Source of the DNA: a virus | Length of the DNA stretch: 29,488 nucleotides | IMG/VR virus record: IMGVR_UViG_3300009104_000087 | Span: 1-29,488 of that record | Direction: 5' to 3' (one strand) | Shown here: one piece after another, positions 2,322 through 26,831 of the stretch | Numbering within the stretch: position 1 is the first letter of the stretch | Layout of the letters: the number at the start of each line of letters is the position of its first letter | The notes under the pieces: model-generated | Databases searched by the model: none | Told to the model about the DNA's origin: nothing | Seen by the model: the letters and a program-made list of their open reading frames with translations, nothing else | Position numbers and translations under genes: made by a program

Positions 2322-2696
2322 ATGGAAAAACAAACTTGGAAAGATAAACTAGAAGAGGTCAGAGGGTTTACAAAACCAGAGACGACTGTAACCGAAGAAA
2401 CCGTTGGAGAACAACACGAGATTGATGAAATCGAGGAGTTGCTTAAGAAGGAATTTGAAGAACAGGCAGAGAGCCAAGAGGAGACTTTGGAATCACTCGA
2501 AGAGAAACGAGATAGATTACAAACAGAACTCAACCAAGTAGAGAAAGAACTCGCTGAAAAAAGTCAGTCAGTAGAAAAATCCATCGAAAAACTAACTGAA
2601 CGCAATATGCTTGGTAGACTTGCCAAGTCACTAAGACTCAACGAACAAGGTAAACAGAAGATGTTTAATTACTTCGAGAAAGGGGAAATCAAATGA
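2322..2696 (+). CDS. Coiled-coil protein of unknown function
   Basis: 124 aa, strongly charged. About residues 38-95 form an uninterrupted Glu/Lys/Leu heptad region (EELLKKEFEEQ, then ESLEEKRDRLQTELNQVEKEL), followed by a short helical C-terminus (MLGRLAKSLRLNEQ). No catalytic motif. It has its own perfect late box 8 bases upstream and overlaps the next gene by 4 bases. The long coil suggests a structural, scaffold-like or chaperone role in head assembly, but nothing more specific can be supported. Confidence 0.7.
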   Translation: MEKQTWKDKLEEVRGFTKPETTVTEETVGEQHEIDEIEELLKKEFEEQAESQEETLESLEEKRDRLQTELNQVEKELAEKSQSVEKSIEKLTERNMLGRLAKSLRLNEQGKQKMFNYFEKGEIK

Positions 2697-3208
2697 GTAT
2701 ACAAGAATTATCTCAAAAACTAATAGACGATATGAAAACAATTCTGGAAGGCGGAACTGTTGAAGTCGTTGAAGATGCATCTAATGATAAGTCAGACGAT
2801 GGTGAAGGTCTAGATAAAGTAGACAGTAAAGCCGCAAAGAAAAAGTTTAAAGACAGAAAAGACAAAGACATCGATAATGATGGCGATACTGATGATTCAG
2901 ATGAGTATTTGCACAAGAGAAGAAAGGCAATTTCTAAGTCACAAGAAGAATCTGTTAAGAAAGAGGAAGTTTGTGATGTTTGTGGTAAAGAACCTTGCGA
3001 ATGTGAAGACAAAGAAGATGAGAAACTTCTAAAGTCTGGTAAATATGCAAAGTATTCAGACTTACTTCTCAAGAAACAGAGAATGTCTAAAGACGCTGAC
3101 AAAACTGCAATCAATAAAGAGATTTCAAAAGAAAGAAAAAAATTGGGTATCAGTGAAGAAAATCTAGAAGATTTACTGATACATTATCTTCCAGAACAAG
3201 AGGACTAA
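2693..3208 (+). CDS. Acidic protein with EF-hand/dockerin-like loop and Cys4 knuckle
   Basis: 171 aa. Residues 59-70 form a calcium-loop pattern, D-x-D-x-D-G-D-x-D-x-x-D, as in EF-hand and dockerin repeats. Residues 94-104 hold C-x2-C-x4-C-x-C (C94, C97, C102, C104), a likely small zinc knuckle. The N-terminus has I17-L18-E19|G20, matching the (I/L)-x-E|G prohead-protease site. The remainder is Lys/Glu-rich and probably helical. It lies between coiled-coil and modular virion-type genes with 1-4 base overlaps. Metal binding is inferred from motifs; the role is unknown. Confidence 0.7.
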   Translation: MSIQELSQKLIDDMKTILEGGTVEVVEDASNDKSDDGEGLDKVDSKAAKKKFKDRKDKDIDNDGDTDDSDEYLHKRRKAISKSQEESVKKEEVCDVCGKEPCECEDKEDEKLLKSGKYAKYSDLLLKKQRMSKDADKTAINKEISKERKKLGISEENLEDLLIHYLPEQED

Positions 3209-3209
3209 T

Positions 3210-4049
3210 ATGGCTGGCAATAAGACAGACAATGGTGTTCACGAAATAGGTACAGACGATATACTCGCATCATACCAGGCTGATACACCAGGCGAAATAG
3301 AAACATCTTATCTTAAGAATGTAAATAAGGCTATTTCTATTGCCGAAAAGAAAAAGAAAGAACAAGTCAAAGCACATTTCTCTATGATATTTGACAATCC
3401 ATTACAAGGTTATCCTTACAACGAACAGTATGGTTTCGATAAGACACTTGAAGAGGGTGTTGAATTAGAAGAAGGTAAAATGGGTGAAATCTATGCCGCT
3501 ATTCAAATGGGATATACTGCAAAAGAACTAGACAACGAATGGGGTATGGGTTTAGCAACTGCTAAGTCATGGATTAGAGAGTATTGGGCAGCCAAAAAAG
3601 CAAATCGTGGTTCAATGAAGAAAGAATCTGTAGACATTACAGAGGGTACATGGGCAGTTCCAGATTCAATGAAAAAGATTACTCAACTTAATGACTTAAT
3701 GAAGAAACCTCACCCTATGAGAAAACCAAAAGATGCAGACACAGCATGGAAGAAGTTCGCAAACTTAGTTGGTGATGATGGTGTTGCTGATGAATGGTAT
3801 TTTCAAGCTGAAGATGGCAAAGGCGATGCAAGAGACCCAATAGTTGACTGGTTAGGCGGTTGGGGATTTAAAGTGGCAGGTTATAGAATCACTCATGCAC
3901 CAGGTTCATATGTAAGTGGGTATGATGATGATGAAAGAGATTCCGCAGAAGTTGAAGAAGGATTCTTTGACAAAATGTGGAAAAAGATTAAGAACAAAGG
4001 CAAGATAAAGAAACCAAAAGGCAAAGATGCCAAGGCAGTTAAGGTATAA
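3210..4049 (+). CDS. Modular virion-type protein with protease-like linkers
   Basis: 279 aa in at least three modules separated by short acidic linkers. Residues 1-85 are an N-terminal region. After L86-E-E88|G89, residues 89-135 hold an HTH-like helical module (MGYTAKELDNEWGMGLATAKSWI). After I143-T-E145|G146, residues 146-240 form a Trp-rich module (WYFQAEDGKGDARD). After V-E-E250|G251 comes a short basic tail. The LEE|G and ITE|G linkers match the (I/L)-x-E|(A/G/S) specificity of T4-type prohead protease, so the protein may be cut into pieces during head maturation. The ESVDITEG linker recurs in the next gene with an identical 20-base DNA stretch. Functions of the modules are unknown. Confidence 0.72.
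   Translation: MAGNKTDNGVHEIGTDDILASYQADTPGEIETSYLKNVNKAISIAEKKKKEQVKAHFSMIFDNPLQGYPYNEQYGFDKTLEEGVELEEGKMGEIYAAIQMGYTAKELDNEWGMGLATAKSWIREYWAAKKANRGSMKKESVDITEGTWAVPDSMKKITQLNDLMKKPHPMRKPKDADTAWKKFANLVGDDGVADEWYFQAEDGKGDARDPIVDWLGGWGFKVAGYRITHAPGSYVSGYDDDERDSAEVEEGFFDKMWKKIKNKGKIKKPKGKDAKAVKV
3624..3643 (+). repeat. 20-base direct repeat, copy 1 (linker)
   Basis: Bases 3624-3643 are identical to 5591-5610 and encode ESVDITE in both genes; the sequences on either side differ. It marks a module boundary in the 279-aa protein. Confidence 0.85.
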
Positions 4050-4051
4050 CA

Positions 4052-6451
4052 ATGAATTTATTCTACGAAGCAAAAAAAGTATTAGACAAAGACGGTAAAG
4101 TTAATGCATTAGGACCTTATGGTAAACAGAAACTAACAGGTCGTGAAGTATCTACTTATTTCCGTAGAAACAAAGTTAAAGACGCTCAAATTAAAAAGGC
4201 AGTAGAAGTTGCACTTGATATGGGTGGTGCAATGAGTGTTGCATACAAAGAGATTACAAAGTTTTATGGTAAGAAAGTTGCAGACTCAAAAGAAGTTCAA
4301 AATGCATTACAATATGCAAACGAAGAAACATTCAGAGAAGGTTTAGGCGAACTAGAAGAAGGTCAGTTTTGGGGTCAAAAGAAAATGGCCAAATCACACG
4401 CCGCTCAACTTAGAAAATCTGGCGCAGTAATGTTGCAGAAAAAAGAGAAATCTGGATCAGTAGGTAGAATCACTTTACCCAAAGGCCATAAAGATATTAA
4501 GAAGTATATGAAACAAGGGTATAAACAAATACCCATAGAATCTGTAGAACCAGAAAAAAAAAATCTAGTTGATGAAGGCAGAAGCGAACTTGACAAACAC
4601 ATCAAGAGTGTAAAACATATTTCTGATATCGAAATCAGATTTAGTGATGAAAAAGAGTGGAAGAGAATGTCTGCACTCGTCAAAAAAGAACTAAGAAAAC
4701 CCGAATACAAATCAATAAAACCTAAAGATGTTTATTACTCTCCTGATCCACTTCAAATTGGATTTGGTGATCCTGATGGTAAGTCAAAAACTAACATCAA
4801 ACCAATAGTAGATTTAATCGCAAACCAAACTAAAGACAAAGAAACTAGACTCAAAAGTATGTATGAGTCAATTAGAAGAGGCGAACCTTTTGTAGGCACT
4901 AAAGATACAACAGGTGGTAAAGGCACATGGAGAAATCTTACTGCCTTAAGGAAGAAGAAGTTCGATGCCCTTTATAAGAAAATGGATGGTGGGCCAGAAC
5001 ATAGGGCAATCAAAAAGAAAATCAAGAATCAAGTAAAGGCTGACGATGCATTTCATGCCCTAGTCATGAAGAAAGTAACCAACGAAGAAGTTGCAGAAGC
5101 ATATTCAAAGAATTCAAAAAGTGGTGCAGAAGTTGCTAAGATGATGATGAAGAGTAAGACAATGAAAGGTTTTGCTGCTAAAGTTAAGAAAATGAAAACA
5201 GTCACCGCTGACCAGTTAGATAAAATGTTGCCAGATTATGTCTCAGGTGGAGATATTGGGGCAATGTTTGAAGATATGCAAGGTCGGTTCGATGGAAAAT
5301 ATTCAACAGGCAGTAAGACAAAGGCCGCTTTGTATTATAGAATACCTTATAACCGATTACATGGTGAACCCGATATTTCAGCTGCAGAAGCACTTGCTAA
5401 AAAATTCAAGTTGAAATATGAAGGACTTCCATACAAAATGATGGCAGAAATGACCATTGAGGTAGAGGGAAGTCCAAAAAACCTGAAAAAGTTTCATAGT
5501 GCATTGACGAAACCAAAAGTTATTAAATCTGTCGATGGCAAAAAATACTTAAAAGTTAAGTTGCAGAAGATTTATGACTACAACATCACCGAATCTGTAG
5601 ACATTACAGAAGGCAAATTGGGTGATTCAATCATTCGTAAAGACTTTCCAAATGTATGGGCTGCTAGTGCAAAAGACAGAACTATTCTTAAGAAGTTCCA
5701 CGCAAAAGTAGACACAAAAAACTACAAGAAACAGAAAGAACTCTATAACAAAAACAAGAAAGCCTTTATGAGTGGATTGGGTAAAGAGAAACTATCATCT
5801 ATAATGAAGAAGATGACTGTTAAAAAAGGACCTATGAAAGGTTGGATGACAGATGATGTTGTTAAAGAGACTGCAAAACTCTTAGGTTATGAACTTGAAG
5901 AGATAAACATGAACATGCCTGAGAAAGTAAGAGTTCAACTATTGACACTCTACAACAAGGCAATGGATTTACCATATGGTTCACCTGCATTTAAAGGGGT
6001 TAAGAAAGAAATCGATAAGATTAATCAGAAGTATGCAATTAAAGAAGATTCAGAAGCAAAGGCAGAACTTGCACTCAAACAGGCTAGAGAAAAGAAAGCA
6101 CTGAAAGCAAAACACGAAAGAGAGATGGACCAACAAGAACAAGTTAAACCTTTCTTCGATACATATCGAGACATGCAAATACAAGAGAAGAAAGAATTAG
6201 ACCCAGCAACGATTGGTAGTATCGCTGCTATGACTGATAACAATGACCACAATAAAGCATTAATCACTCTCGCAAAAGCAATGAAAGAGATGAAAGTCGT
6301 AAAAATGTTAGAGTTGTTATCTCAAATGCACAAAGTAGAAGGTTCTATGTCTTCTGATATGGTTGCAATTAGAAAAGGTATGTATCAAGAACTCATGAAG
6401 AAATCAAAGAGAGTTTTCAGTAATCATAAAGAAATATACAAAGCATTTTAA
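4052..6451 (+). CDS. Large modular internal-virion-type polyprotein
   Basis: 799 aa, Lys-rich, built of several modules. Residues 1-98 are a helical module ending at L101-E-E103|G104. Residues 104-162 are a basic module (SGSVGRITLPKGHKD). A linker ESVEPE...LVDEG spans 163-176, where the DNA has a run of ten A. Residues 177-513 hold mixed helical and alpha/beta modules. ESVDITEG (514-521, I518-T-E520|G521) is followed by a C-terminal helical half with L-E-E|I near residue 617 and a coiled stretch (LKQAREKKALKAKHERE). The repeated (I/L)-x-E|G linkers suggest processing by the prohead protease and packaging in the head. No enzyme motif was recognised. Related linker-plus-module architectures occur in marine T4-like phages. 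Confidence 0.75.
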   Translation: MNLFYEAKKVLDKDGKVNALGPYGKQKLTGREVSTYFRRNKVKDAQIKKAVEVALDMGGAMSVAYKEITKFYGKKVADSKEVQNALQYANEETFREGLGELEEGQFWGQKKMAKSHAAQLRKSGAVMLQKKEKSGSVGRITLPKGHKDIKKYMKQGYKQIPIESVEPEKKNLVDEGRSELDKHIKSVKHISDIEIRFSDEKEWKRMSALVKKELRKPEYKSIKPKDVYYSPDPLQIGFGDPDGKSKTNIKPIVDLIANQTKDKETRLKSMYESIRRGEPFVGTKDTTGGKGTWRNLTALRKKKFDALYKKMDGGPEHRAIKKKIKNQVKADDAFHALVMKKVTNEEVAEAYSKNSKSGAEVAKMMMKSKTMKGFAAKVKKMKTVTADQLDKMLPDYVSGGDIGAMFEDMQGRFDGKYSTGSKTKAALYYRIPYNRLHGEPDISAAEALAKKFKLKYEGLPYKMMAEMTIEVEGSPKNLKKFHSALTKPKVIKSVDGKKYLKVKLQKIYDYNITESVDITEGKLGDSIIRKDFPNVWAASAKDRTILKKFHAKVDTKNYKKQKELYNKNKKAFMSGLGKEKLSSIMKKMTVKKGPMKGWMTDDVVKETAKLLGYELEEINMNMPEKVRVQLLTLYNKAMDLPYGSPAFKGVKKEIDKINQKYAIKEDSEAKAELALKQAREKKALKAKHEREMDQQEQVKPFFDTYRDMQIQEKKELDPATIGSIAAMTDNNDHNKALITLAKAMKEMKVVKMLELLSQMHKVEGSMSSDMVAIRKGMYQELMKKSKRVFSNHKEIYKAF
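5591..5610 (+). repeat. 20-base direct repeat, copy 2 (linker)
   Basis: Identical to 3624-3643, encoding ESVDITE between two modules of the 799-aa protein. A shorter partial match (GAATCTGTAGAA, encoding ESVE) lies at about 4538-4549. Confidence 0.85.
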
Positions 6452-7196: not shown

Positions 7197-7766
7197 ATGG
7201 CATTATGGGGAGTATCAGACGCTGATGAAGCAAAACCTAAGTGGTTATCAGCAACAGATAAATCTAATACATTTGCAACGGCCGCTGGATGGGTACTAAG
7301 AAGAACTGTAGGGTCTAGAACTCTAGAGGAACTTTTAGTCTCAGCTCAAGGTCTGGCAACAGGAATTGGACAAGCTGACATTACAGCGATAGATTGGGTA
7401 ACAACAGCCGCAGATAAATCTGCTGGATTTACACTTTCTGCAACTGTAAGTTATAACGAAAAAGTGACTGTATCTGGAAGTCCTACTTTATCAGTTACCA
7501 ATGGTAACGAAGGTAGTGGTTCAGGTAGAGGCCCACATGTATTAGTATACGCTTCAGGAACAGGAACTAACCAACTAACTTTCTCATTGGCAATAGGAGC
7601 TAACAACGCTGCTACTAATGCAAATGATGTATTAAGTTTTGGTGCAAATGCTGTAGCCCACGCAGGTGGTTCAACAATAGTAGATACAGTTGGTGGTGGA
7701 AACGCAACCATTACTTCTTCTGCTGGAATCGGAACACTCGCTGGAACAATTACAGTTGTTGCATAA
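7197..7766 (+). CDS. Beta-rich virion structural protein
   Basis: 189 aa, low in charged residues and rich in Thr, Ser, Gly, Ala and Val, unlike the Lys-rich genes before it. The N-terminus (MALWGVSDADEAKPKWL) is of a type I recall in structural proteins of marine T4-like phages. Alternating beta-strand sequence follows (FTLSATVSYNEKVTVSG), consistent with Ig-like or decoration folds. A good ribosome site (GAGAGGAAAA) precedes the ATG, consistent with strong expression. It may be a head decoration or tail-associated protein; which one cannot be said. Confidence 0.75.
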   Translation: MALWGVSDADEAKPKWLSATDKSNTFATAAGWVLRRTVGSRTLEELLVSAQGLATGIGQADITAIDWVTTAADKSAGFTLSATVSYNEKVTVSGSPTLSVTNGNEGSGSGRGPHVLVYASGTGTNQLTFSLAIGANNAATNANDVLSFGANAVAHAGGSTIVDTVGGGNATITSSAGIGTLAGTITVVA

Positions 7767-8055: not shown

Positions 8056-8490
8056 ATGAAAACATTTTTAGAATACATAAACGAAGACCATTCACTAGAT
8101 GGATTCAGTGGCGCAGGCCTCAGTTCTTCTCATATCCCTTATGATATAGAAGACGCCGAAGTTAAGGCAAGAGTCAACGCAATCTTAGGACATGTTGCAG
8201 TAAGTGAGTTTTTAAATCCTCACGCTGCTATCGCTCAGATGGAATCTAAGTTATCACAACTTGGTCTCATGAAGATGAGGTCAGTAGAAGGTCATGGTGA
8301 AGTCCAACAAGAAGAGATAACTGGTTCAGGTGAACTAGACTTACAATTCTCTTGGTTGGGAGAAACTATTGGTAAATCAGTAGACACACCTATCGACCAG
8401 TTAGACAAAGAAGAAAAAGTAGTATCTTTAAAAGTTAAATACGAACAACTTGACACAGGTTCGTTCAAAGTTTACGGTTCTTTAGTCTAA
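8056..8490 (+). CDS. Protein with capsid-targeting-like N-terminus
   Basis: 144 aa of unknown family. The first residues MKTFLEYINED closely match the T4 internal-protein targeting sequence (MKTYxEFIxE), including an (I)-N-E|D cleavage-type site at residues 8-10. The body starts with an amphipathic region (DAEVKARVNAILGHVAVSEF) and ends in beta sequence (KVVSLKVKYEQLDTGSFKVYG). It follows the small structural gene by 8 bases and ends at the strong hairpin. A head-packaged protein is the best guess. Confidence 0.7.
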   Translation: MKTFLEYINEDHSLDGFSGAGLSSSHIPYDIEDAEVKARVNAILGHVAVSEFLNPHAAIAQMESKLSQLGLMKMRSVEGHGEVQQEEITGSGELDLQFSWLGETIGKSVDTPIDQLDKEEKVVSLKVKYEQLDTGSFKVYGSLV

Positions 8491-9025: not shown

Positions 9026-9643
9026 ATGGTCGGAAGAGTAATAGACAGTTTAATTGTGTTCAGGATTTTGAAGATGTTGACAACAGACTTCAAAAAAACT
9101 CCTGCATATAAGTTTGGTTTCATTGATTCTAAGGGAAAGAGAATTAAGTTTCTGCCTGACCCGAACAACAAGAATCAACTCTTGCCCAATGAACCAAAGA
9201 CCAGAGAAGAGAAAAACTCACTTACACCATTACATAGATTGGTTTTCAATCTTAAGAAACTAATTAGAATGGTGCCATTTGGTAAGACTGCATTTGCATC
9301 ATATGCCGTTGCACTTGCATTATTAAAAGAAGAAACTAAACTAGATTCAGACCAAGCAGACGAACTGTTTGAGAAATTCTATAGACATCTAAAAGAAGAA
9401 GATATCTTTCATGCAGATATGATAACAGAAGGTGTAGAAGTTGGAAGACTTATGCATCAGGATATCTATAGACTGAGAAGAAGACTTGAACAAAACTTCG
9501 ATGAGAACGGAGAGATTAAAGTTTACGAAGAGAAATCCATTGTCACCAATGTAGTTAATAACAGTATTGGTTATGGTGTTCTCATATACGAAGGAAGAAT
9601 AGGAGACGATAAAATCCTATTCACGGCAGAAGATGTATATTAA
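9026..9643 (+). CDS. Conserved marine T4-like phage protein
   Basis: 205 aa. The start (MVGRVIDSLIVFRILKMLTTDF) and a central block (HRLVFNLKKLIRMVPFGKTAFASYA) fit a family I recall in marine T4-like phages that begins near this Met, which supports ATG 9026 despite the lack of a ribosome site. The C-terminal half is acidic and helical and ends in a short beta region. No enzyme motif is visible. It overlaps the PAP2-fusion gene by 11 bases, so the two are probably co-expressed late proteins. Confidence 0.72.
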   Translation: MVGRVIDSLIVFRILKMLTTDFKKTPAYKFGFIDSKGKRIKFLPDPNNKNQLLPNEPKTREEKNSLTPLHRLVFNLKKLIRMVPFGKTAFASYAVALALLKEETKLDSDQADELFEKFYRHLKEEDIFHADMITEGVEVGRLMHQDIYRLRRRLEQNFDENGEIKVYEEKSIVTNVVNNSIGYGVLIYEGRIGDDKILFTAEDVY

Positions 9644-11681
9644 CGAAGTATTATATCATATAGACGAAGATTATAGGAAGTATTGTGACACCATAGATTT
9701 GGTGTGCGAAGAGATTCTATTAGAAGATGCAAAAGAGAAAGATGCATGGTTCTTCGACATGTCGCCTGAGAAACAAAAAGAATATATCAAGGCACATCCA
9801 GATTCAGAGAAGACAAAACAGTTAAAGAAACAACTCGCAAAGATGAAGAAGGGTGACGACTCAAAACCTACTTCAAAGGATACCCCAAAGAAACAAGACA
9901 AACCCGAACCCAAATCAAAAGACAAACCAGAAGAACCCAAAAAAGATAATACAGTTGGTGGTGCATTACCAGACACAGTTGCAGATTTAAAATCACATGT
10001 TAAGGGTGTTAGAGATGCCGTTGGTGCAGACTTAGAAACTATTGCAACTGCATTTAAAGAACCGTCAGTCTATAACACAGTTAAGGCAATTGGTGGTTCT
10101 ATATCTGCATCATCAAAAGTTGTAATGGGAACACTCAGAACTGTAGGCAAAACTCTTACACTTGGTGGTGCTGCCATTCATGACACGAAAGCCTTCCAAC
10201 AATTAGAGAAGGGTCTTATTAAAACAGATGAGTTCATGAGTAAAAACAAGGCACTCGCAACTATGAGTGCTGTTGCAGTATCAGGACTTGCAATAGGTCA
10301 GTGGTTGAGAATGTCATTCTCAGGTGATATAGAGTCTGATTTTGACCTCACTATAATCCCAGCCGCCTTTGCTGGTAACGCTGGTTTTGCAGACCTTATC
10401 GCCACACCTGATGGCATTAAAGGCATAGGGTTATTAAGTGCAGGTATGGCTACAGGTGGTTTACCCATTTGGATGGGTGGTCCAGTAGGACTTGCAATGG
10501 CACTAACATATTCAGGACTTAAGAGTGCAGGTGAAACTGAAAAGGGTAAAGAAATTAAGAAAAAGATGGTAGATTACGCAAATCAAATGGGTGACACCAT
10601 TGGTGATGTTGCGAAAAAAGCTGATAAAAAACTAGGATTAGATAAGAAATCCACACCGACCATGAAAGATGTTAAAGATACGATGTGGGGTAAAGGCAAA
10701 CATTCAACTAAGAAACCTAGAATGAGTGAAGAAGAATTTGATAGAAGTTTAGTTGAGTCAGTTTTAGTTCTTCAAACTCCAACACAAGCAGACGAATATA
10801 TTGCTGACAAGATAATGGAAATCTTGAAGAAATCTAATTTCAAACAGAAACAAGCACTGGCGAAGAAGTTTGGTATCAAACTCTTCAAAAGAGGAAAGAA
10901 GATGGCCATCGAGTCAGTTGTAAATATAAATTCAGTAGTCTTTGCACCCAAAGATGAATTAAAACAACCGAAATATGAAGAGATAGATATCTTTGAAGAA
11001 GGTTGGGACAGTATCAAGTTAGACCCACCATCAGAAAATAGTTCAGGTCAAACAAAGAAAGAATTAACACAAGTAATAGATGAGTCAAATAATGCAAGTG
11101 ACGAAGCGATAAAACAATACATCAATTGTGATGAAGACGCCAACTATTACATAAAAGAATATATGGAAGATTCAGACTTAGAGTTTGATGAAGAGGAAGT
11201 TGACTACATTAAGAGTCAATGTAAACCTATAGGCAGACATTACAAGAACATGTATAATCGTCCTAGACCATATCAACTCGCAGAAGAATATAACATGGAG
11301 TTAAACAAGTTCAAAACAGGAACTGCAAATACACCATCATATCCTTCCAGTCACGCACTACAATCATATGTTGTCGCAAATTTCTATGCAAAGAAATATC
11401 CAGAACACGAGGGTAATCTAAGAGATATGGCAGACATATGTGCATGGGGTAGAGTTCAAGCAGGACTACATTACCCAAGTGACTACAAGGCAGGTATAAA
11501 ACTTGCAGATGAAGTATCAAAATATTTTAAAGAAACTATAGAAGAAGATGCACCAGTGAATTCTACAGGCAGTGCCGTATCAACAGACACGCCTCTAGTA
11601 AAAAGAAATAAGTATCAGAAAAAGAATGAGAAAGATAGTAAAAATATCTATAAACGAATTCTTAAAAGATACGATTACTAA
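9633..11681 (+). CDS. Virion-type protein with C-terminal PAP2-like acid phosphatase domain
   Basis: 682 aa. The N-terminus has I-N-E|V and L-L-E|D sites (residues 3-5 and about 32), then a Lys/Pro/Asp-rich linker (about 60-110). A glycine/alanine-rich hydrophobic middle follows (about 205-290, with MSAVAVSGLAIGQWL and GLPIWMGGPVGLAMALTY). The last 160 residues hold all three signatures of PAP2/class A acid phosphatases: K538-x6-R545-P, P571-S-S-H574 and R607-x5-H613-x3-D617. Such enzymes remove phosphate through a phospho-histidine. The only departures are PSSH for PSGH and GR for SR. The fusion suggests a head-packaged or ejected enzyme that could act on lipid or small phosphoesters. Substrate and location are inference. 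Confidence 0.78.
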   Translation: MYINEVLYHIDEDYRKYCDTIDLVCEEILLEDAKEKDAWFFDMSPEKQKEYIKAHPDSEKTKQLKKQLAKMKKGDDSKPTSKDTPKKQDKPEPKSKDKPEEPKKDNTVGGALPDTVADLKSHVKGVRDAVGADLETIATAFKEPSVYNTVKAIGGSISASSKVVMGTLRTVGKTLTLGGAAIHDTKAFQQLEKGLIKTDEFMSKNKALATMSAVAVSGLAIGQWLRMSFSGDIESDFDLTIIPAAFAGNAGFADLIATPDGIKGIGLLSAGMATGGLPIWMGGPVGLAMALTYSGLKSAGETEKGKEIKKKMVDYANQMGDTIGDVAKKADKKLGLDKKSTPTMKDVKDTMWGKGKHSTKKPRMSEEEFDRSLVESVLVLQTPTQADEYIADKIMEILKKSNFKQKQALAKKFGIKLFKRGKKMAIESVVNINSVVFAPKDELKQPKYEEIDIFEEGWDSIKLDPPSENSSGQTKKELTQVIDESNNASDEAIKQYINCDEDANYYIKEYMEDSDLEFDEEEVDYIKSQCKPIGRHYKNMYNRPRPYQLAEEYNMELNKFKTGTANTPSYPSSHALQSYVVANFYAKKYPEHEGNLRDMADICAWGRVQAGLHYPSDYKAGIKLADEVSKYFKETIEEDAPVNSTGSAVSTDTPLVKRNKYQKKNEKDSKNIYKRILKRYDY

Positions 11682-13923: not shown

Positions 13924-16244
13924 ATTCAGAAGTCAAGGTCATTAAGTCAGACGGTTCAAAAGTTTCAATAGATTTAGATAAGATACATATAATGGTAGAG
14001 AAAGCCTGTAGACATATTGCAGGTGTTTCAGAGTCACTAGTAGAGATGAACAGTGGTCTACAATTTTATGATGGCATCACAACTAAAGAAATACAGAAGA
14101 TTCTAATCAAGTCTGCAAGTGACTTAATCTCACTAGATAACCCAAATTATCAATTTGTAGCGGCCAGACTATTGTTGTTCGCAATACAGAAACAAGTCTT
14201 CAATACAAAGTGGAAGGATAAATCTAAAGACGACTCGTTAGACAAAATATATCCGCCATTAAAGGAATTGATAAAGAGAAATATAAAGAAGGGTCTTTAT
14301 TCAAATGACTTAATTTCTAAATACTCAGACGAGGAGTTAATTAAACTCAACTCATATCTAAAGCATGGTAGAGATTTAGATTTCACCTATGCAGGTTTAC
14401 AACAAGTAGTAGATAAGTATCTTATACAAGACAGGTCATCTAACACTTTGTTTGAAACACCGCAATACATGTATATGTTAATTGCAATGACACTGTTTCA
14501 AAATTACAATGGTCATGGCGAAAAAGATAGATTATGGTATATCAAGAAATATTATGATGCATCATCGACATTTAAAATAAACATACCCACGCCTATAATG
14601 GCAGGTGTAAGAACGCCGATGAAACAATTTGCATCATGTGTCCTAGTAGACAGTGATGATACTTTAGATTCATTATTCTCTAGTGACATGGCGATTGGTA
14701 GATATGTCGCCCAAAGAGCAGGCATTGGCATCAACGCAGGAAGAGTCAGAGGATTGGGTTCAAGAATAAGAGGTGGTGAAGTACAACACACAGGTGTTAT
14801 ACCATTTCTTAAGAAATTTGAGTCAACAGTTAGATGTTGCACTCAGAATGGAGTCAGAGGCGGAAGTGCAACAGTTCATTTCCCTATTTGGCACCAAGAG
14901 ATTGAAGACATTATTGTATTAAAGAACAATAAGGGAACAGAAGACAACAGAGTAAGAAAGTTAGATTACTCTATACAACTATCAGAGTTGTTTTATAAGA
15001 GATTTCTTCAAAATGGAGAAATAACATTATTCTCACCTCATGATGTGCCAGGTTTATATGATGCATTTGGCACGCCAGAGTTTGATGATATGTATGAGAA
15101 GTATGAAAATGCATACTCAATCCCTAAAAGAAAGATTAGTGCAAGAGAACTAATAACAGATTTATTGAAAGAACGAGCGGAGACTGGTCGTATCTACATC
15201 ATGAACATTGACCATTGTAATAGTCATAGTTCATTTACAGACAAGATTAATATGAGTAATCTTTGTCAAGAGATAACATTACCAACAGAACCCATACAAC
15301 ATATCGATGACCATGGTGGGGAGATTGCCTTATGTATATTAAGTGCAATCAATGTTGGTGTTATCAAAGATTCAGAATTAGAAGAGATATGTGACATTGC
15401 AGTCAGAGGTCTAGACGAGTTAATAGATTATCAAGAATATCCAGTGGCAGCCGCCGAAATGTCAACACTCGCAAGACGAAGTTTAGGCATAGGATACATT
15501 GGACTGGCACACTATTTAGCAAAAAACCGTGTCAAATATGGTGATGAGAGCGCCTGGAGACTCGTCCACGAGTTGTCCGAGAAATTCCAATACTATCTAC
15601 TCAAATCATCTACGACATTAGCGCAGGAAAAGGGTAAATGTGACTATTTTGATAGAACCAAGTATGCACAAGGCATATTACCCATAGACACATACAAGAA
15701 AGATGTAGATGATATAGTAAAACCCGAATATAAGATGGATTGGGAGAAACTAAGAGAAGAGATATTAACACATGGGTTGAGACACTCTACATTGACCGCA
15801 CAAATGCCAAGTGAATCGTCAAGTGTCACATCTAACGCAACTAATGGCATTGAACCACCTAGAGATTATCTATCAGTTAAGAAAAGTAAGAAGGGAACAC
15901 TCAAACAGATAGTTCCTCAATACTCACATCTTAAATCTGCATACACTTTATTGTGGGATATGGAAGATAACACAGGTTATATCAATATAGTTGCAGTAAT
16001 GCAAAAGTTCTTTGACCAAGGGATAAGTGGTAACTGGTCATATAATCCCGAGAATTATGATAATAATGAAGTTCCAGTCTCTATCATGGCAAGAGACTTG
16101 TTGAATACATATAAGTATGGATGGAAGACATCTTATTACCAAAACACAATGGATGGTAAAGTAGAAGATGTTATAGAAGAGCCACTACCTAGTGACCCTT
16201 TTGATTCCGATAGTGAGGAAGATTGTGATGCCTGTGCCATTTAA
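13920..16244 (+). CDS. nrdA: Ribonucleoside-diphosphate reductase class Ia, large subunit
   Basis: 774 aa, close to E. coli and T4 NrdA in length. An N-terminal ATP-cone region (VIKSDGSKVSIDLDKI) precedes the catalytic barrel. Expected catalytic residues are present: C240 (FASCVLV), N447-x-C449-x-E451 (NLCQE) and C472 (ALCILSA), with the radical-relay and specificity region MPSESSSVTSNATNGIEPP. The C-terminus keeps the swinging-arm pair C769-D-A-C772, which glutaredoxin or thioredoxin reduces. It reduces NDPs to dNDPs with NrdB. It is coupled to primase by a 4-base overlap and separated from nrdB by two oxygenase genes and one small gene. No intron or intein is visible. Confidence 0.98.
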   Translation: MNSEVKVIKSDGSKVSIDLDKIHIMVEKACRHIAGVSESLVEMNSGLQFYDGITTKEIQKILIKSASDLISLDNPNYQFVAARLLLFAIQKQVFNTKWKDKSKDDSLDKIYPPLKELIKRNIKKGLYSNDLISKYSDEELIKLNSYLKHGRDLDFTYAGLQQVVDKYLIQDRSSNTLFETPQYMYMLIAMTLFQNYNGHGEKDRLWYIKKYYDASSTFKINIPTPIMAGVRTPMKQFASCVLVDSDDTLDSLFSSDMAIGRYVAQRAGIGINAGRVRGLGSRIRGGEVQHTGVIPFLKKFESTVRCCTQNGVRGGSATVHFPIWHQEIEDIIVLKNNKGTEDNRVRKLDYSIQLSELFYKRFLQNGEITLFSPHDVPGLYDAFGTPEFDDMYEKYENAYSIPKRKISARELITDLLKERAETGRIYIMNIDHCNSHSSFTDKINMSNLCQEITLPTEPIQHIDDHGGEIALCILSAINVGVIKDSELEEICDIAVRGLDELIDYQEYPVAAAEMSTLARRSLGIGYIGLAHYLAKNRVKYGDESAWRLVHELSEKFQYYLLKSSTTLAQEKGKCDYFDRTKYAQGILPIDTYKKDVDDIVKPEYKMDWEKLREEILTHGLRHSTLTAQMPSESSSVTSNATNGIEPPRDYLSVKKSKKGTLKQIVPQYSHLKSAYTLLWDMEDNTGYINIVAVMQKFFDQGISGNWSYNPENYDNNEVPVSIMARDLLNTYKYGWKTSYYQNTMDGKVEDVIEEPLPSDPFDSDSEEDCDACAI

Positions 16245-17217
16245 AGATAAAACTGTAGATTATAGAATAAAATCAAATTTAGACATCGATAAACCTAGAA
16301 ATTTGAGTTCGATGTCGTCAAATACATCTCTTGTGCCTGGAAAAACTAACCCATTGACATGGGAACTCATGTTCGATAGATATGTCGTTCTACGAGATTT
16401 CCTGCCACAAGATATAATAGAGGTGGTCATGGATATGTGGCGTTCTGCTGAAGATGTTGGTGCATACATGCATCGAGAAAATAAAGATATCACATATAAG
16501 AATCCCGAAGAGTCAATAGGCAAATCATTGGGTGGTTATTGCACACCATGGGGCATTGCATTACATGGATATATTCACAACAAGTTAAAAGATTATATCG
16601 ACATGGATTTGCGAGAGACATACTCGTATACTAGAAAGTATGAGAGAGGTGCATATTTGGGTTCACACACTGATAGACCATCATGTGAGATAAGTGCAAC
16701 ACTTTGTCTAGATTATCATACTGATGATAACACGCCATGGAAGATATGGTTGAGAAATGATAAGAACTATGCTGGCATAGATGCAGAGACAGTTAAGAAA
16801 GAAACGCAAGACTTGACTCAACGAGAGAGATTGAGAAATGGGCTCAAGTCAGTTTCTTTAGAACCTGGTGATATATTATTATATCAAGGTCCAAACATGC
16901 CACATTGGAGAGACTACTTATTGGGTGATTACTCATATCACTTGTTTGTTCATTTCTTTAATGCAGATTCTAGAATGGAAGGCATAGAGGGATTTCACTC
17001 AGGTCAAAATCATGATTTACACACCGCACCTGCCGCCTATGCATTAGATTTAGATGGAAGAACTAATCGTTGGGAAACAAGAGGAGATGATGAACAGCCC
17101 GATACTGATAAGATGAGAAAGTTTACAGATTTTAATGATACATATTATAAGAGTGATTATGGTTCTATGGTAAATGACTACGAACACTTTGAATTAGTTA
17201 AGAAGAGAAGAAAATGA
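16228..17217 (+). CDS. 2OG/Fe(II)-dependent oxygenase between nrdA and nrdB
   Basis: 329 aa. A double-stranded beta-helix oxygenase with H147-x-D149 (GSHTDRP) and distal H226 (MPHWRD) preceded by LEPGDILLYQG. The strand after it (YSYHLFVHFF) lacks the usual Arg that binds 2OG, so cosubstrate binding may differ. The frame is open upstream, but ATG 16228 has GAGGAAG 6 bases before it and gives a normal N-terminus, so I prefer it. It overlaps the nrdA 3' end by 17 bases. Substrate unknown; its place inside the reductase operon may reflect nucleotide or DNA modification. Confidence 0.8.
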   Translation: MPVPFKDKTVDYRIKSNLDIDKPRNLSSMSSNTSLVPGKTNPLTWELMFDRYVVLRDFLPQDIIEVVMDMWRSAEDVGAYMHRENKDITYKNPEESIGKSLGGYCTPWGIALHGYIHNKLKDYIDMDLRETYSYTRKYERGAYLGSHTDRPSCEISATLCLDYHTDDNTPWKIWLRNDKNYAGIDAETVKKETQDLTQRERLRNGLKSVSLEPGDILLYQGPNMPHWRDYLLGDYSYHLFVHFFNADSRMEGIEGFHSGQNHDLHTAPAAYALDLDGRTNRWETRGDDEQPDTDKMRKFTDFNDTYYKSDYGSMVNDYEHFELVKKRRK

Positions 17218-17405
17218 GAACTGAATTTTGCAAATTTCTAAGAGAAGTATCAACCGAAGAAGGCGGTAAAGAATATCACGAACTCGCACAATGTATTCGT
17301 TCAGGTCAAGTATCATATGACCAAATACAAGAACACATGAAAGATGAAGACTTTAAAGAGTATTACTTGAACAATTTCTATGATTATGGAATAATACCAC
17401 AATGA
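17214..17405 (+). CDS. Small acidic protein, unknown
   Basis: 63 aa, helical and charged (REVSTEEGGKEYHELAQCIRSG), ending in an aromatic stretch (EYYLNNFYDYGIIPQ). No metal or catalytic motif and no TM segment. It overlaps both neighbouring oxygenase genes by 4 bases (ATGA type), so it is part of the nrdA-nrdB operon. Tight coupling and coding character support it as real; no function can be given. Confidence 0.65.
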   Translation: MRTEFCKFLREVSTEEGGKEYHELAQCIRSGQVSYDQIQEHMKDEDFKEYYLNNFYDYGIIPQ

Positions 17406-18007
17406 AACATCATACTTATTATAAAGAGTTTCTTTCTCCTACAGAATGTGAACAATTATCATCATTTGTTATGTCAGAAGAACCTAGAATCATGGCAATT
17501 GATAACCCATACAAACATCCAGATTCATGGAAAGGACTTACAGGACAACATCTGGTCTATAATTGGTTATCTCATCCGACACTTCAAGCGTTAAATATAC
17601 CACAAAGACTGTTTGAATTGCCAGATTTTCAAAATGCTACAGTTCTTGGTATACAATGTTGGATGAATATTTTAAGACAAGAGGAAAGAATAGAACAACA
17701 CGCACATGGTGAACCAGATGATTCTCCTTCATATGCTTGTAATGTATTTCTCTCAGGTAACCTGACCACCGGAACACGATATGAAGATATTGGTTATACA
17801 CCAAATGAAATTGGAGAAATTCACATATGTTCACACGAACTAGAACACGCAGTTCCTTCTCAATTATTCAGAGAACCACGAATCAGTATGGCGATGGATG
17901 TGTGGTTTAATGATGAAAGTATACAAGAGATTTACAACTCGCCAGAAACATTTCCAAATAGTAGTGTTCGCATTATAGAATTCAGGAGAAGTAATGACAG
18001 TATTTAA
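17402..18007 (+). CDS. 2OG/Fe(II) oxygenase-like protein
   Basis: 201 aa with the architecture of the phage 2OG/Fe(II) oxygenase family that carries an HxH motif: H100-x-H102 (EQHAHGEPD), beta strands (YACNVFLSG), distal H149 (ELEHAV) and R160 (REPRISMAMDVWF), where the basic residue would bind 2OG. The second residue of the usual H-x-D/E is His here, so metal binding may be atypical. It overlaps nrdB by 14 bases. The protein it most resembles in this window is the 251-aa one at 23339. Substrate unknown. Confidence 0.68.
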   Translation: MKHHTYYKEFLSPTECEQLSSFVMSEEPRIMAIDNPYKHPDSWKGLTGQHLVYNWLSHPTLQALNIPQRLFELPDFQNATVLGIQCWMNILRQEERIEQHAHGEPDDSPSYACNVFLSGNLTTGTRYEDIGYTPNEIGEIHICSHELEHAVPSQLFREPRISMAMDVWFNDESIQEIYNSPETFPNSSVRIIEFRRSNDSI

Positions 18008-23280: not shown

Positions 23281-23358
23281 ATGATAGTTGGTATTACAGT
23301 ATTCATTGTTTCCGTCACACTATATATTATGAATAAGAATGAAACCAGTCAAAATTGA
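23281..23358 (+). CDS. 25-aa TM microprotein (tentative)
   Basis: MIVGITVFIVSVTLYIMNKN plus five polar residues: one short hydrophobic helix. The frame overlaps the first 20 bases of the next gene. No good ribosome site is visible. It is like other tiny TM frames in this block but could be chance. Confidence 0.3.
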   Translation: MIVGITVFIVSVTLYIMNKNETSQN

Positions 23359-24094
23359 TACACCAAAAAATACATATGCGCCTTGCCGAGGTGAATATCA
23401 TCAGATGTTCCCAACGCCTATGTTTCAAGGCAAAGTCAACTTAAATCATAAAGAAGTTGCAAAACACTGTAAAGAGATTGTTGCAAAGGTGCCTAATGGC
23501 AACCCAACAATGGAGTATACAACATATTTCGATAATGACTTAAGAGAAGAGACACACAATCAACCGTGGTTTAACTCATTTGCCAATCAGATGAAGGATT
23601 CGTATATCGCATTTCTCAGAGAGATGTGGTTATTTCCAACTGATGGCCTCAACAGACACAACATACATTTCTTTGCATGGGTGAATGTCTATAATCAACC
23701 ACACCAACACGAAACACACAATCATGTCAAGTCTAGACTATCAGGTACATACTATGTGAAGACTGATTTTGATTCAGAACCAATTAAATTCTTTAACCCG
23801 AATATGAGTTCTTTATTTGGTCATGGCGCCAATGACGATAGAATGAAATACAATGAACAAATGGAAGGTGCAGGTACGCCAGGTGGAATGACAGACCTCG
23901 AATTCTTTCCTAAGACTGGTGACTTTATGTTGTGGCCTTCGTATCTATTACATACTGTGCCAAGGGGTAAGGCACGAGATATGCTGAACTATGAACGCAT
24001 AAGTGTTTCATTCAATTTACAACATTCAGAAGATTTGGGTTCATATCATCATGGCGATAACTTTGATTATGGGGTTTTAGATGAACAAAGATAA
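23339..24094 (+). CDS. 2OG/Fe(II) oxygenase, HxH family
   Basis: 251 aa. A metal-binding cluster H122-x-H124...H127-x-H129 lies just before RLSGTYYV, a strand typical of the phage 2OG/Fe(II) family with HxHxxxxLSGxYYV. The distal H205 (LLHTVPRG) and R220 (YERISVSFNLQ) complete the site. The segment KTGDFMLWPSYLLH is the usual strand before the distal His. It is the first of a five-oxygenase run and overlaps the next gene by 14 bases. Closest in type to the protein at 17402. Substrate unknown. Confidence 0.82.
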   Translation: MKPVKIDTPKNTYAPCRGEYHQMFPTPMFQGKVNLNHKEVAKHCKEIVAKVPNGNPTMEYTTYFDNDLREETHNQPWFNSFANQMKDSYIAFLREMWLFPTDGLNRHNIHFFAWVNVYNQPHQHETHNHVKSRLSGTYYVKTDFDSEPIKFFNPNMSSLFGHGANDDRMKYNEQMEGAGTPGGMTDLEFFPKTGDFMLWPSYLLHTVPRGKARDMLNYERISVSFNLQHSEDLGSYHHGDNFDYGVLDEQR

Positions 24095-24773
24095 TGTAGT
24101 CATACTAGATGAACTCTATAAGATGAGGTCGTCATTTGACAATGCAGAGTTTGATGGTTTCTGTTTGACTATAGATGATTTCTATGAAAACGCAGAAGAC
24201 TTATATGAACATATCACGAACAGACAATACCCAATGTGGAAATACAACCCCGAATCTAATACACGCAATGGCATAGATTATCTCGACTGTAGGATAGTAG
24301 ATAAGGTTGGGCACCCTACGAGAATATACAATAATGAGAATGAGAGACTACTAGATGTATGCAGACGATATTGGTGGAAGGGCGAATACAATTGGTCAGG
24401 TCTATATGAGTTTAATTGTTTTCAAACGATTACAGTAGATGACCCTAAGATGCAACATTACCCACATATCGATAGTGCATTAGACACGCCAGACAATTGT
24501 TCAACACTCAACATGTTAGTATACTTAGATAAAGAAGAAGATGGTGGTACTGCCGTATATGACGGAGAATGGATTACTAATGATGAGAACATGAGTTTAC
24601 TGTATCCTGTTGAAGACAGATTTGATATAGAACGAATCATACCACACAAGTTTAACAGATGTGTTATATTTCCAGGCAATCGTATGCATGGTGCATATAT
24701 AAATGACTACAATAAATACAAAGACAAGTGGAGATTTACCCAAGTGATATTCTACCACCCACAAAGGAATTAA
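24081..24773 (+). CDS. 2OG/Fe(II) oxygenase-like protein, second in run
   Basis: 230 aa. H129-x-D131 (YPHIDSAL), strands LNMLVYLDKEEDGGTAVY, distal H203 (GNRMHGAYI) and R218 (WRFTQVIFY) make a full Fe/2OG site. The LVYLDKEEDGGT signature is shared with P4H-type enzymes. It starts 14 bases inside the upstream gene and ends 2 bases before the next start. Sequence outside the core differs from neighbours, so the run is not a recent tandem duplication. Confidence 0.8.
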   Translation: MNKDNVVILDELYKMRSSFDNAEFDGFCLTIDDFYENAEDLYEHITNRQYPMWKYNPESNTRNGIDYLDCRIVDKVGHPTRIYNNENERLLDVCRRYWWKGEYNWSGLYEFNCFQTITVDDPKMQHYPHIDSALDTPDNCSTLNMLVYLDKEEDGGTAVYDGEWITNDENMSLLYPVEDRFDIERIIPHKFNRCVIFPGNRMHGAYINDYNKYKDKWRFTQVIFYHPQRN

Positions 24774-24775
24774 TT

Positions 24776-25585
24776 ATGACCCCAAAATTCAAAATAGGCA
24801 ATCCTGTCAACATGGAAGATACGAATATAGAGAAGAATGAAGAAGGTATTCTTGATGGTGTAGGTAATGATTACGCTAGAGACGGTGATGCAAATGAGTA
24901 TTTTATAGGAGACTCAGAATTGGATCCTTCACATTCTCGATACAGAGAACGGAACGAACCGAACTTCATTTACATAAAACCTAGAATAATCAATGACCGT
25001 GGTTGTTCAGCACTTATCAACATGTTTCTAGATATGCCATTTGATGAGGTCACCATAGAGAACGAACACGATATCACTCCATCTGAGAGAGTGCAAAAAC
25101 ACAATCTATCTTACAAGTATGAGGCAGGTTACAACAAAGACCATATGACACTGGCACACGACTCGCCAGAGTGGAATAAGGCATTAGAGGTCGTAGGTTC
25201 TCAGTTAATCGAACATCCAGATTTTGATAGAATCACATATATGCAAATCGTTCATTATAAACAAGATGCACTCTTCCCATTTCATAGAGACATGGCGAAG
25301 AATGATGTAGGCAGAGATTACGGAACATGCATCACTCAATTGAATGATGATTTTCATGGTGGACAACTGAATGTAGAAGGTTGCCTTATACCCAAGAGAG
25401 CGGGTACAATGGCATTCTTTAACAATTCAAGTGAAGTGTGGCATGGAGTTGAACCGATATATGACGGTGAACGATATGTCTTTTTAATGTGGTTTGGGAG
25501 GGACTATGAATCAAGCGAAATGCAGTCAATGTCAGAAGACACTGAATCTGGAGACGGTGAGTTATCACTCGAAGATAATCAATAA
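24776..25585 (+). CDS. 2OG/Fe(II) oxygenase, P4H-like, third in run
   Basis: 269 aa from ATG 24776, chosen over an upstream in-frame GTG because AAGGA lies 7 bases before it. A disordered acidic N-terminus (residues 1-60) precedes the oxygenase core: H170-x-D172 (PFHRDMA), TCITQLNDDFHGGQLNV, distal H223 (VWHGVEP) and R233 (ERYVFLMWF). The C-terminal acidic tail contains the start of the zinc-ribbon gene in another frame. Substrate unknown. Confidence 0.85.
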   Translation: MTPKFKIGNPVNMEDTNIEKNEEGILDGVGNDYARDGDANEYFIGDSELDPSHSRYRERNEPNFIYIKPRIINDRGCSALINMFLDMPFDEVTIENEHDITPSERVQKHNLSYKYEAGYNKDHMTLAHDSPEWNKALEVVGSQLIEHPDFDRITYMQIVHYKQDALFPFHRDMAKNDVGRDYGTCITQLNDDFHGGQLNVEGCLIPKRAGTMAFFNNSSEVWHGVEPIYDGERYVFLMWFGRDYESSEMQSMSEDTESGDGELSLEDNQ

Positions 25586-25715
25586 TACGGTAGAACATGT
25601 GTGGTGTAATGCAGAATGTAGTCATAAGTGGCATCAGGCAAATAAGAAATATGAAGAATCACTCAAGAAGAGACCGAAGAATATATGGCCATCACATGAA
25701 GGGCATGGTGGGTAA
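25506..25715 (+). CDS. Zinc-ribbon/finger protein embedded in oxygenase 3' end
   Basis: 69 aa from ATG 25506, preceded by GGGAGGG. C6-x2-C9 (KCSQCQ) and C34-x3-C38 (WCNAECSHKW), with His after it, form a four-ligand zinc site of the treble-clef or MYM-like type. 80 bases overlap the preceding oxygenase in a different frame. The stop overlaps the next ATG. It may bind nucleic acid or protein; perhaps it gives an oxygenase its target. Confidence 0.7.
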   Translation: MNQAKCSQCQKTLNLETVSYHSKIINNTVEHVWCNAECSHKWHQANKKYEESLKKRPKNIWPSHEGHGG

Positions 25716-26227
25716 TGGAAATAATAGATAATTTTTATAAAGAGAATTTCTTTAACGACTTAGTAGAACAACTTGAAAGTCCGTATTGTCCGTATTACAT
25801 CAATCCAGTCAATAGAGATAGTTCGTATTATCAATTCACTCATGCAATCTATTATCGTAATCAACCCGAAAGTGATATGTTTGAATTGATTCAACCTTTA
25901 TTAGAACAACTTGAAGTTCTCACTCTCATAAGGGCAAAGGTCAATTTACTACCACGAACCGACAAAAGAATTGAACACGACTATCATATAGACATAGACT
26001 TTGCACCTACGAATGTGAAGACTGCCATATTGTACTTGAATGACAACAATGGTTACACTAAATTTAAACATCAAGACGAGAATAGAGTCAATAGTAAAGC
26101 GAACAGATTAGTCAGGTTTGCAAATGGCATCTATCACACTGGTTCAACTAACACATGTGATGAACCCTATAGATTGGTTTTGAACATAGATTATATCCAA
26201 AAAAATAATGACATCAGAGAATACTGA
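25715..26227 (+). CDS. 2OG/Fe(II) oxygenase, fourth in run
   Basis: 170 aa, compact. H91-x-D93 (DYHIDIDF), strand TAILYLNDNNGYTKF, distal H141 (GIYHTGST) and R153 (YRLVLNIDY) are in order and spacing for the superfamily. The short N-terminal helix region (MEIIDNFYKENFFNDLVEQL) is typical of small phage members. It starts at the last base of the zinc gene stop and overlaps the next gene by 20 bases. Confidence 0.85.
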   Translation: MEIIDNFYKENFFNDLVEQLESPYCPYYINPVNRDSSYYQFTHAIYYRNQPESDMFELIQPLLEQLEVLTLIRAKVNLLPRTDKRIEHDYHIDIDFAPTNVKTAILYLNDNNGYTKFKHQDENRVNSKANRLVRFANGIYHTGSTNTCDEPYRLVLNIDYIQKNNDIREY

Positions 26228-26831
26228 AAAACCCCAATACCATTGGATAGACCATGGCGACCACATACTCGCCATTGAGAACTGTTTTGATGATGGTCTA
26301 ATAGATGCATGTATTGATGTATTCAATGATTGTGAAGAGAAGGGTTTAACTCTCGACAGATTAGAGAGTCATCCTGGTTCACATAAACACCTTCGTGCTG
26401 ACACCTCGATATTCTATAGTTCAATGGACTCTATGTTGTCTAGACCAATGCAAGACATGAAAGGAATCATCGACAATGAAATCATTGACTCATGGTTAGA
26501 CCATTATCCAGTGATAGAGACTGAACAATATAGAGAACTATATACTAGTCAGCTGAAGATACAGAGAACACGATTGACAGAAGGGTATCATAATTGGCAT
26601 AGTGAACACACGAGTAAGATACAAGATGTTAGAACGATACTTGCATATATGGTATACTTGAATGATGTTGATGAAGGTGGTGAGACTGAATTCTTATATC
26701 AATCAAAACGAATACGGCCTAAACGCAATACATTTGTTATATGGCCAGCGGGATTTACTCACACTCATCGTGGAAACCCACCGTTGAGTAATGATAAATA
26801 TGTTATAACAGGTTGGATAAATGTTATCTAA
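26208..26831 (+). CDS. 2OG/Fe(II) oxygenase, fifth in run
   Basis: 207 aa. H131-x-E133 (NWHSEHT) uses Glu in place of Asp; then LAYMVYLNDVDEGGETEFLY, distal H185 or H187 (FTHTHRGNPP) and K197 (DKYVITGWI) in the 2OG-binding place. H-x-E with distal Lys is known in one 2OG/Fe(II) subgroup, so activity is plausible. The first 20 bases overlap the previous gene. Confidence 0.82.
   Translation: MTSENTEKPQYHWIDHGDHILAIENCFDDGLIDACIDVFNDCEEKGLTLDRLESHPGSHKHLRADTSIFYSSMDSMLSRPMQDMKGIIDNEIIDSWLDHYPVIETEQYRELYTSQLKIQRTRLTEGYHNWHSEHTSKIQDVRTILAYMVYLNDVDEGGETEFLYQSKRIRPKRNTFVIWPAGFTHTHRGNPPLSNDKYVITGWINVI

Follow-up and report, generated by a model that had tools for sequence, protein, structure and literature searches.

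Two adjacent genes of a T4-like marine phage probably encode modular head-cargo precursors with gp21-type linkers

Among the abundant viruses of the ocean are T4-like cyanophages and pelagimyophages, whose virions contain much that has no known function. Two adjacent genes in the window, the 29.5 kb virus contig analysed here over its whole length, encode modular proteins of 279 and 799 residues (p279 and p799) with short glutamate-containing motifs at module borders, raising the question of whether these chains are precursors cut by a prohead protease. The contig is fragmentary and lacks the head genes, gp21 among them. Its S-layer-like protein (7197-7766) exhibits 61% identity with that of Pelagibacter phage HTVC008M and 48% with that of Methylophilales phage Melnitz, both members of Kyanoviridae. 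Gene order in the window is that of HTVC008M, Melnitz and cyanophages: the S-layer-like gene is preceded by a block of hypothetical proteins and followed, in the window and its relatives, by DNA primase and ribonucleotide reductase. The block starts after the helicase in HTVC008M, Melnitz and cyanophages, and p279 and p799 are members of this helicase-primase block. As judged from protein identity and gene order, the window phage is a T4-like marine phage and kin of Pelagibacter phage HTVC008M.

Both genes lie on the plus strand, p279 at 3210-4049 and p799 at 4052-6451. An earlier note had placed LEEG, ITEG and VEEG at module borders in the two proteins; the sequences and coordinates are borne out, its residues E88, E145, E103 and E520 are correct, and homology breakpoints in relatives independently put the tetrapeptides at module borders. 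With a slash marking the candidate cut, p279 possesses LEE/G at E82 and E88, ITE/G at E145 and VEE/G at E250, and p799 possesses LEE/G at E103 and ITE/G at E520, along with FYE/A (E6), FRE/G (E96), VDE/G (E175), MYE/S (E272), VAE/A (E349) and ITE/S (E514). Against residue shuffles, [ILV]xEG occurs four times in p279 (0.32 expected, P = 0.0002) and three times in p799 (0.69 expected, P = 0.03), and [ILVFM]xE[GASN] occurs eight times in p799 (3.6 expected, P = 0.024). The excess over chance is clear in p279 and only mild in p799.

On the basis of the ORF, breakpoints and sequence contexts, p279 divides into modules N (residues 1-82), A (89-145), B (146-250) and C (251-279). In the double linker LEE/GVELEE/G (3453-3473), both E82 and E88 are followed by a candidate cut. 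Module A (GKMG..., three helices, 3474-3644) is the sole confident part of the p279 model and is preceded by LEE, LDE or LQE in six of six contexts. Module B (GTWxxP..., 3645-3959) ends at the VEE/G of E250 and is likewise preceded by [IL]xE in all six of its contexts (ITE, LQE, LKE, IKE or LTE). The A/B linker shares its DNA with a linker of p799: ESVDITEG had been reported twice with an identical 20-base repeat, and exact copies of GAATCTGTAGACATTACAGA were found at 3624-3643, coding for ESVDITE between A and B, and at 5591-5610, in the linker ESVDITE/G with E520.

The larger protein, p799, carries modules D to M behind a six-residue leader, MNLFYE/A (4052-4069), which reads MNLFQE/AK or MNIFQE/AK in relatives and resembles the six-residue leader of T4 Alt. 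Module D (LTGREV..., 4070-4360), with 46 instances, ends at the LEE/G of E103, and its model is ordered over residues 30-90; module E (GQFWG..., 4361-4576) ends at the VDE/G of E175. Modules F and G (4577-5098) end at the VAE/A of E349, with a possible cut at the MYE/S of E272 and a less certain border. Module H (AYSK...MMMKSKTM..., 5099-5278) is preceded by [VMI]xE/A in seven of seven true contexts (VAE, VTE, VSE, VQE, MSE, IDE or VDE). Module I (alpha/beta, 5279-5593) ends at the ITE/S of E514, and module J (GKLGDSIIRKDFP..., 5612-5902) is fused directly to H in loci L008 and L009. In the stretch of modules K, L and M (5903-6448), IQE/K at E712 precedes M, which follows [IL]xE in five of five contexts (IQE, LQE, IVE or LEE), and the borders of K and L are weaker. 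Searches with whole p279 and whole p799 against isolate phages (tblastn) gave no matches, p799 having none even at E = 10; modules D and B alone gave none in isolate phages, and Pfam and PHROGs yielded nothing useful for either protein.

Neighbouring plus-strand genes have comparable features. Immediately upstream, p171 (2693-3208) contains a D-rich module common to other Kyanoviridae. At the contig end, a kinase-like module (19-750) follows LIQE/GVYDPGIFKA and forms the last part of a cytidylyltransferase fusion that the contig boundary truncates; in HTVC008M this module is a gene of its own, beginning MIPFILKE/GLYDPG. A 144-residue protein (8056-8490) opens with a leader like the T4-type capsid-targeting leader, MKTFLEYINE/D. 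Elsewhere in the window, a 682-residue protein (9633-11681) combines a long N-terminal part with a PAP2-type phosphatase domain near its C-terminal end (Pfam PF01569, residues 538-622), and proteins at 755-1240, 16192-18007 and 23339-26831 resemble, by eye, 2-oxoglutarate/Fe(II) oxygenases, annotated examples of which are also numerous in HTVC008M. A T4 late promoter-like TATAAATA lies at 2306-2313, directly 5' of the ORF at 2322; over the window, the count of TATAAATA is not above chance.

The modularity suggested earlier found support in the proposed comparison of module order between related phages, as the same segments recur in relatives in other orders and in other genes. Among the IMG/VR relatives, module E (p799 residues 104-166) lies inside the p171 homologue of L008, a single 930-residue protein of L005 runs from p799 326-409 through p279 86-133 to p799 27-90 (H-A-D), L004 joins p799 1-90 straight to 350-412, and L009 carries p279 85-141 within its p799 homologue. 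Module strings include NABC, NHE, NHAD, NBHAD, DAM, DBM, BHDM, DFGHJK, DEGHJAL and DEFGHIJKLM, among others. Modules therefore occur as independent units with other partners or in other genes, as for E in L008, H-A-D in L005 and the kinase gene of HTVC008M, and exchange between genes and orders is evident from these alignments. In L005 (8409-8822), the unit VKE/GELPPALKKAIAKKKGEDEDSEE is present in two consecutive tandem copies, each with its own motif, which looks like a recent duplication of the unit at a linker. A homologue of module N is joined to a DUF5824 module in L010 (6313-6786), and DUF5824 ends a cytidylyltransferase protein in Melnitz; on the DUF5824 case, PHROG and Pfam families in the block are mosaics.

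The T4 prohead protease gp21 cuts at L/I-x-E (PMC9026906), and T4 Alt is cut at ITE-6 and LTE-619 (PMC5694885). An all-against-all comparison was used to collect junctions, defined as internal positions in both proteins at which a stretch of homology starts. [ILVFM]xE/G was enriched 5.7-fold at 3-8 residues into the aligned part, whereas hydrophobic-x-D/small and non-hydrophobic-x-E/small reached 1.2-fold in the same test. Hydrophobic-x-E/[GASN] lay within -2 to +10 of 120 of the 303 well-supported internal homology starts, against 30.2 expected from random positions in the same proteins (z = 18, the counts not being independent, as the loci are related), and control motifs in this set showed no enrichment (z at most 2.0). 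The linkers themselves differ (LDE/G, LQE/S, VKE/G, ITE/G) and share only a hydrophobic P3 and a glutamate at P1. The anchors for position frequencies were chosen by eye, and those for A, H, NLMPAIQ and KYSDLLL also hit additional or displaced positions, so that the pooled P1 and P3 frequencies are understated. The motif is absent from several module starts, among them FAM2 and FAM3. The suggestion that the linkers are of gp21 type is upheld in that their P3/P1 rule fits L/I-x-E and the junction motif stands far above controls. The motif that marks T4-type gp21-processed internal proteins is thus present and enriched at junctions, although the motif alone does not prove cutting.

A matching protease and capsid sites are found in relatives. 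HTVC008M gp21 shares 40% identity with T4 gp21, and gp21 is present in nine of the 15 virus records with module relatives; the other six, of 38-86 kb, are probably fragments. Capsid proteins of seven module-bearing relatives have LDE/AA, LEE/AA or LSE/AA shortly before the conserved fold, a match to the T4 site by motif and position, not by column, as that site falls in a gapped stretch of the alignment. Two further relatives have LTE/G in the capsid protein, FLGE52 of the HTVC008M capsid protein aligns with FLTE65 of T4, and HTVC008M gp22 contains many LxE sites.

Genes of the block often open with T4-like capsid-targeting leaders of the form MKTFxxFLxE/A, such as MKTFGKFLTE/A before cytidylyltransferase. 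The T4 record has MKTYQEFIAE/A in ipII and ipIII, ...ITE/A in ipI and MELITE/L in alt. The strict leader pattern is found in 52 of 623 representative proteins of the relatives' loci; in HTVC008M it matches none of 109 ORFs outside the block and has no perfect match inside it, and p279 shows no clear capsid-targeting leader. In L117 (8472-9200; Syn9 gp186), a leader-like LLTFKQFNE/G is found internally, as though the protein had acquired a whole internal protein together with its leader. The T4-GC190 cytidylyltransferase of cyanophage S-SM1, with the leader MKKFSAFLNE/A, was detected in virions by mass spectrometry (PMC3037559), as were gp154, gp155, gp156 and gp160 of S-CREM2 (PMC10665884). 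S-CREM2 gp154 begins MKNFSSFLTE/A, and gp160 is a chain with LxE/ linkers that matches PHROG 38880, as does p171 of the window in a different part. Virion association of the syntenic block is documented in two cyanophage isolates; these data speak for the block as such and do not extend to p279 and p799.

Structure models were poor overall, with mean pLDDT of 44.5 for p279 and 47.1 for p799. Ordered islands lie at about 89-132 in p279 and at about 30-90, 117-163, 354-395, 440-487 and 619-662 in p799. All eight [ILVFM]xE/[GASN] sites of p799 fall in low-confidence stretches between islands, which is mild support because 65% of residues score below 50. Foldseek found nothing significant for these low-confidence models; the resemblance that module A bears to helix-turn-helix domains, like that between module I and small alpha/beta domains, was not significant and was set aside.

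Taken together, p279 and p799 are probably cargo polyproteins that gp21 cuts into small internal, and probably ejected, head proteins. The precursors would assemble into the prohead core, and a gp21-type protease would cut after each linker glutamate, leaving about four small proteins from p279 and eight to ten from p799 in the head as modules of roughly 50-105 residues. Like T4 IPI and Alt, these would then accompany the DNA into the host, and by analogy with T4 might act in host takeover or counter-defence. A linker of this kind would be a cut site whatever its flanks, so that a module moved from one precursor to another could still be freed; since relatives carry these modules rearranged and in different genes, the heads of these phages are probably loaded with interchangeable sets of small proteins. 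It is a reasonable but tentative possibility that dozens of small effector modules, many with their own prohead-protease site, form a shared pool shuffled among a few polyprotein genes, one or two genes giving 5-15 different ejected proteins per virion, with strain-to-strain turnover of the set like that of an anti-defence cassette.

The junctions are rich in glutamate in general (any E is enriched 1.7-fold, and P4-P7 are E-rich), as would be expected if both proteins stayed uncut and multi-domain, with flexible acidic spacers whose composition produces the motif. However, glutamate without a hydrophobic P3, or aspartate in place of glutamate, shows no enrichment, and P3 and P1 are fixed across linkers while P2, P4 and P5 vary, making this account unlikely. 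The position of the block in the replication region, between helicase and primase genes, and the lack of a strong late promoter signal in the window search would suit proteins that act in the cytoplasm, in replication or takeover, and stay out of the head throughout. Such a role is very unlikely given that proteins of the same block are found in S-SM1 and S-CREM2 virions (PMC3037559, PMC10665884) and that block genes carry T4-type leaders.

The linkers might also be conserved as DNA, serving as seeds for recombination rather than being read by a protease; two junctions of this phage do share an exact 20-nt repeat, and L005 has tandem GELPPAL units. Linker repeats of at least 17 nt within one phage, however, occur only here and in the near-identical copy L001, and what linkers have in common is P3 and P1 only, leaving this explanation extremely unlikely. 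Motif-linked repeat pairs numbered 14 against 1.8 expected but are not counted as support, because they derive from this phage and from the tail-fibre-like repeats of L025 and L029. Long tail-fibre-like proteins with dense internal repeats (L025, 7988-9276; L029, 7805-11392) yield false pairs of motif and linker repeat, and DNA repeats as general recombination seeds were accordingly rejected. Of the earlier proposal that linkers allow exchange by recombination, the exchange stands, but repeated linker DNA within one phage is particular to this phage, and in the sequences compared exchange through DNA homology at linkers is not supported as the general case.

If p279 and p799 are indeed cleaved cargo precursors, the helicase-primase block would become legible, as cut sites would predict the true mature proteins, and annotation or clustering of its mosaics as whole genes would mislead. 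Modules could be tested singly as ejected takeover or counter-defence proteins, and swaps of cargo without rebuilt release signals would be explained.

The literature searched describes processed internal proteins and capsid-targeting leaders in T4, phiKZ and SPN3US; shuffled multi-module cargo precursors were not found in it, and priority is uncertain. The head ejection proteins of phiKZ and SPN3US are alike in being processed cargo packed with DNA, with glutamate at P1 of their S/A-x-E sites (PMC5694885, PMC9026906), but there propeptides are removed. The T4 core proteins gp22 and gp67 also undergo several gp21 cuts inside one protein (PMC9026906); most of what these cuts produce is waste and is lost from the head, whereas the pieces of p279 and p799 are conserved and separately inherited modules. 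The T4-GC190 cytidylyltransferase block of S-SM1, Syn9, P-SSM4 and S-CREM2 shares the genome position, MKxFxxFLxE/A leaders, LxE linkers and virion location, but its modules are mostly other than those of p279 and p799. Closest in kind are the gp21-processed IPI, IPII, IPIII and Alt of T4, which are small, diverse cargo with L/I-x-E sites and whose short N-terminal leaders are like those of block genes and p799; the predicted modules fall in the size range of T4 IPI*, which has 76 residues (PMC3012670). In T4, however, one gene gives one internal protein, cut only near its ends, whereas each chain of p279 or p799 holds several modules, many preceded by a site, and these modules are exchanged between genes.
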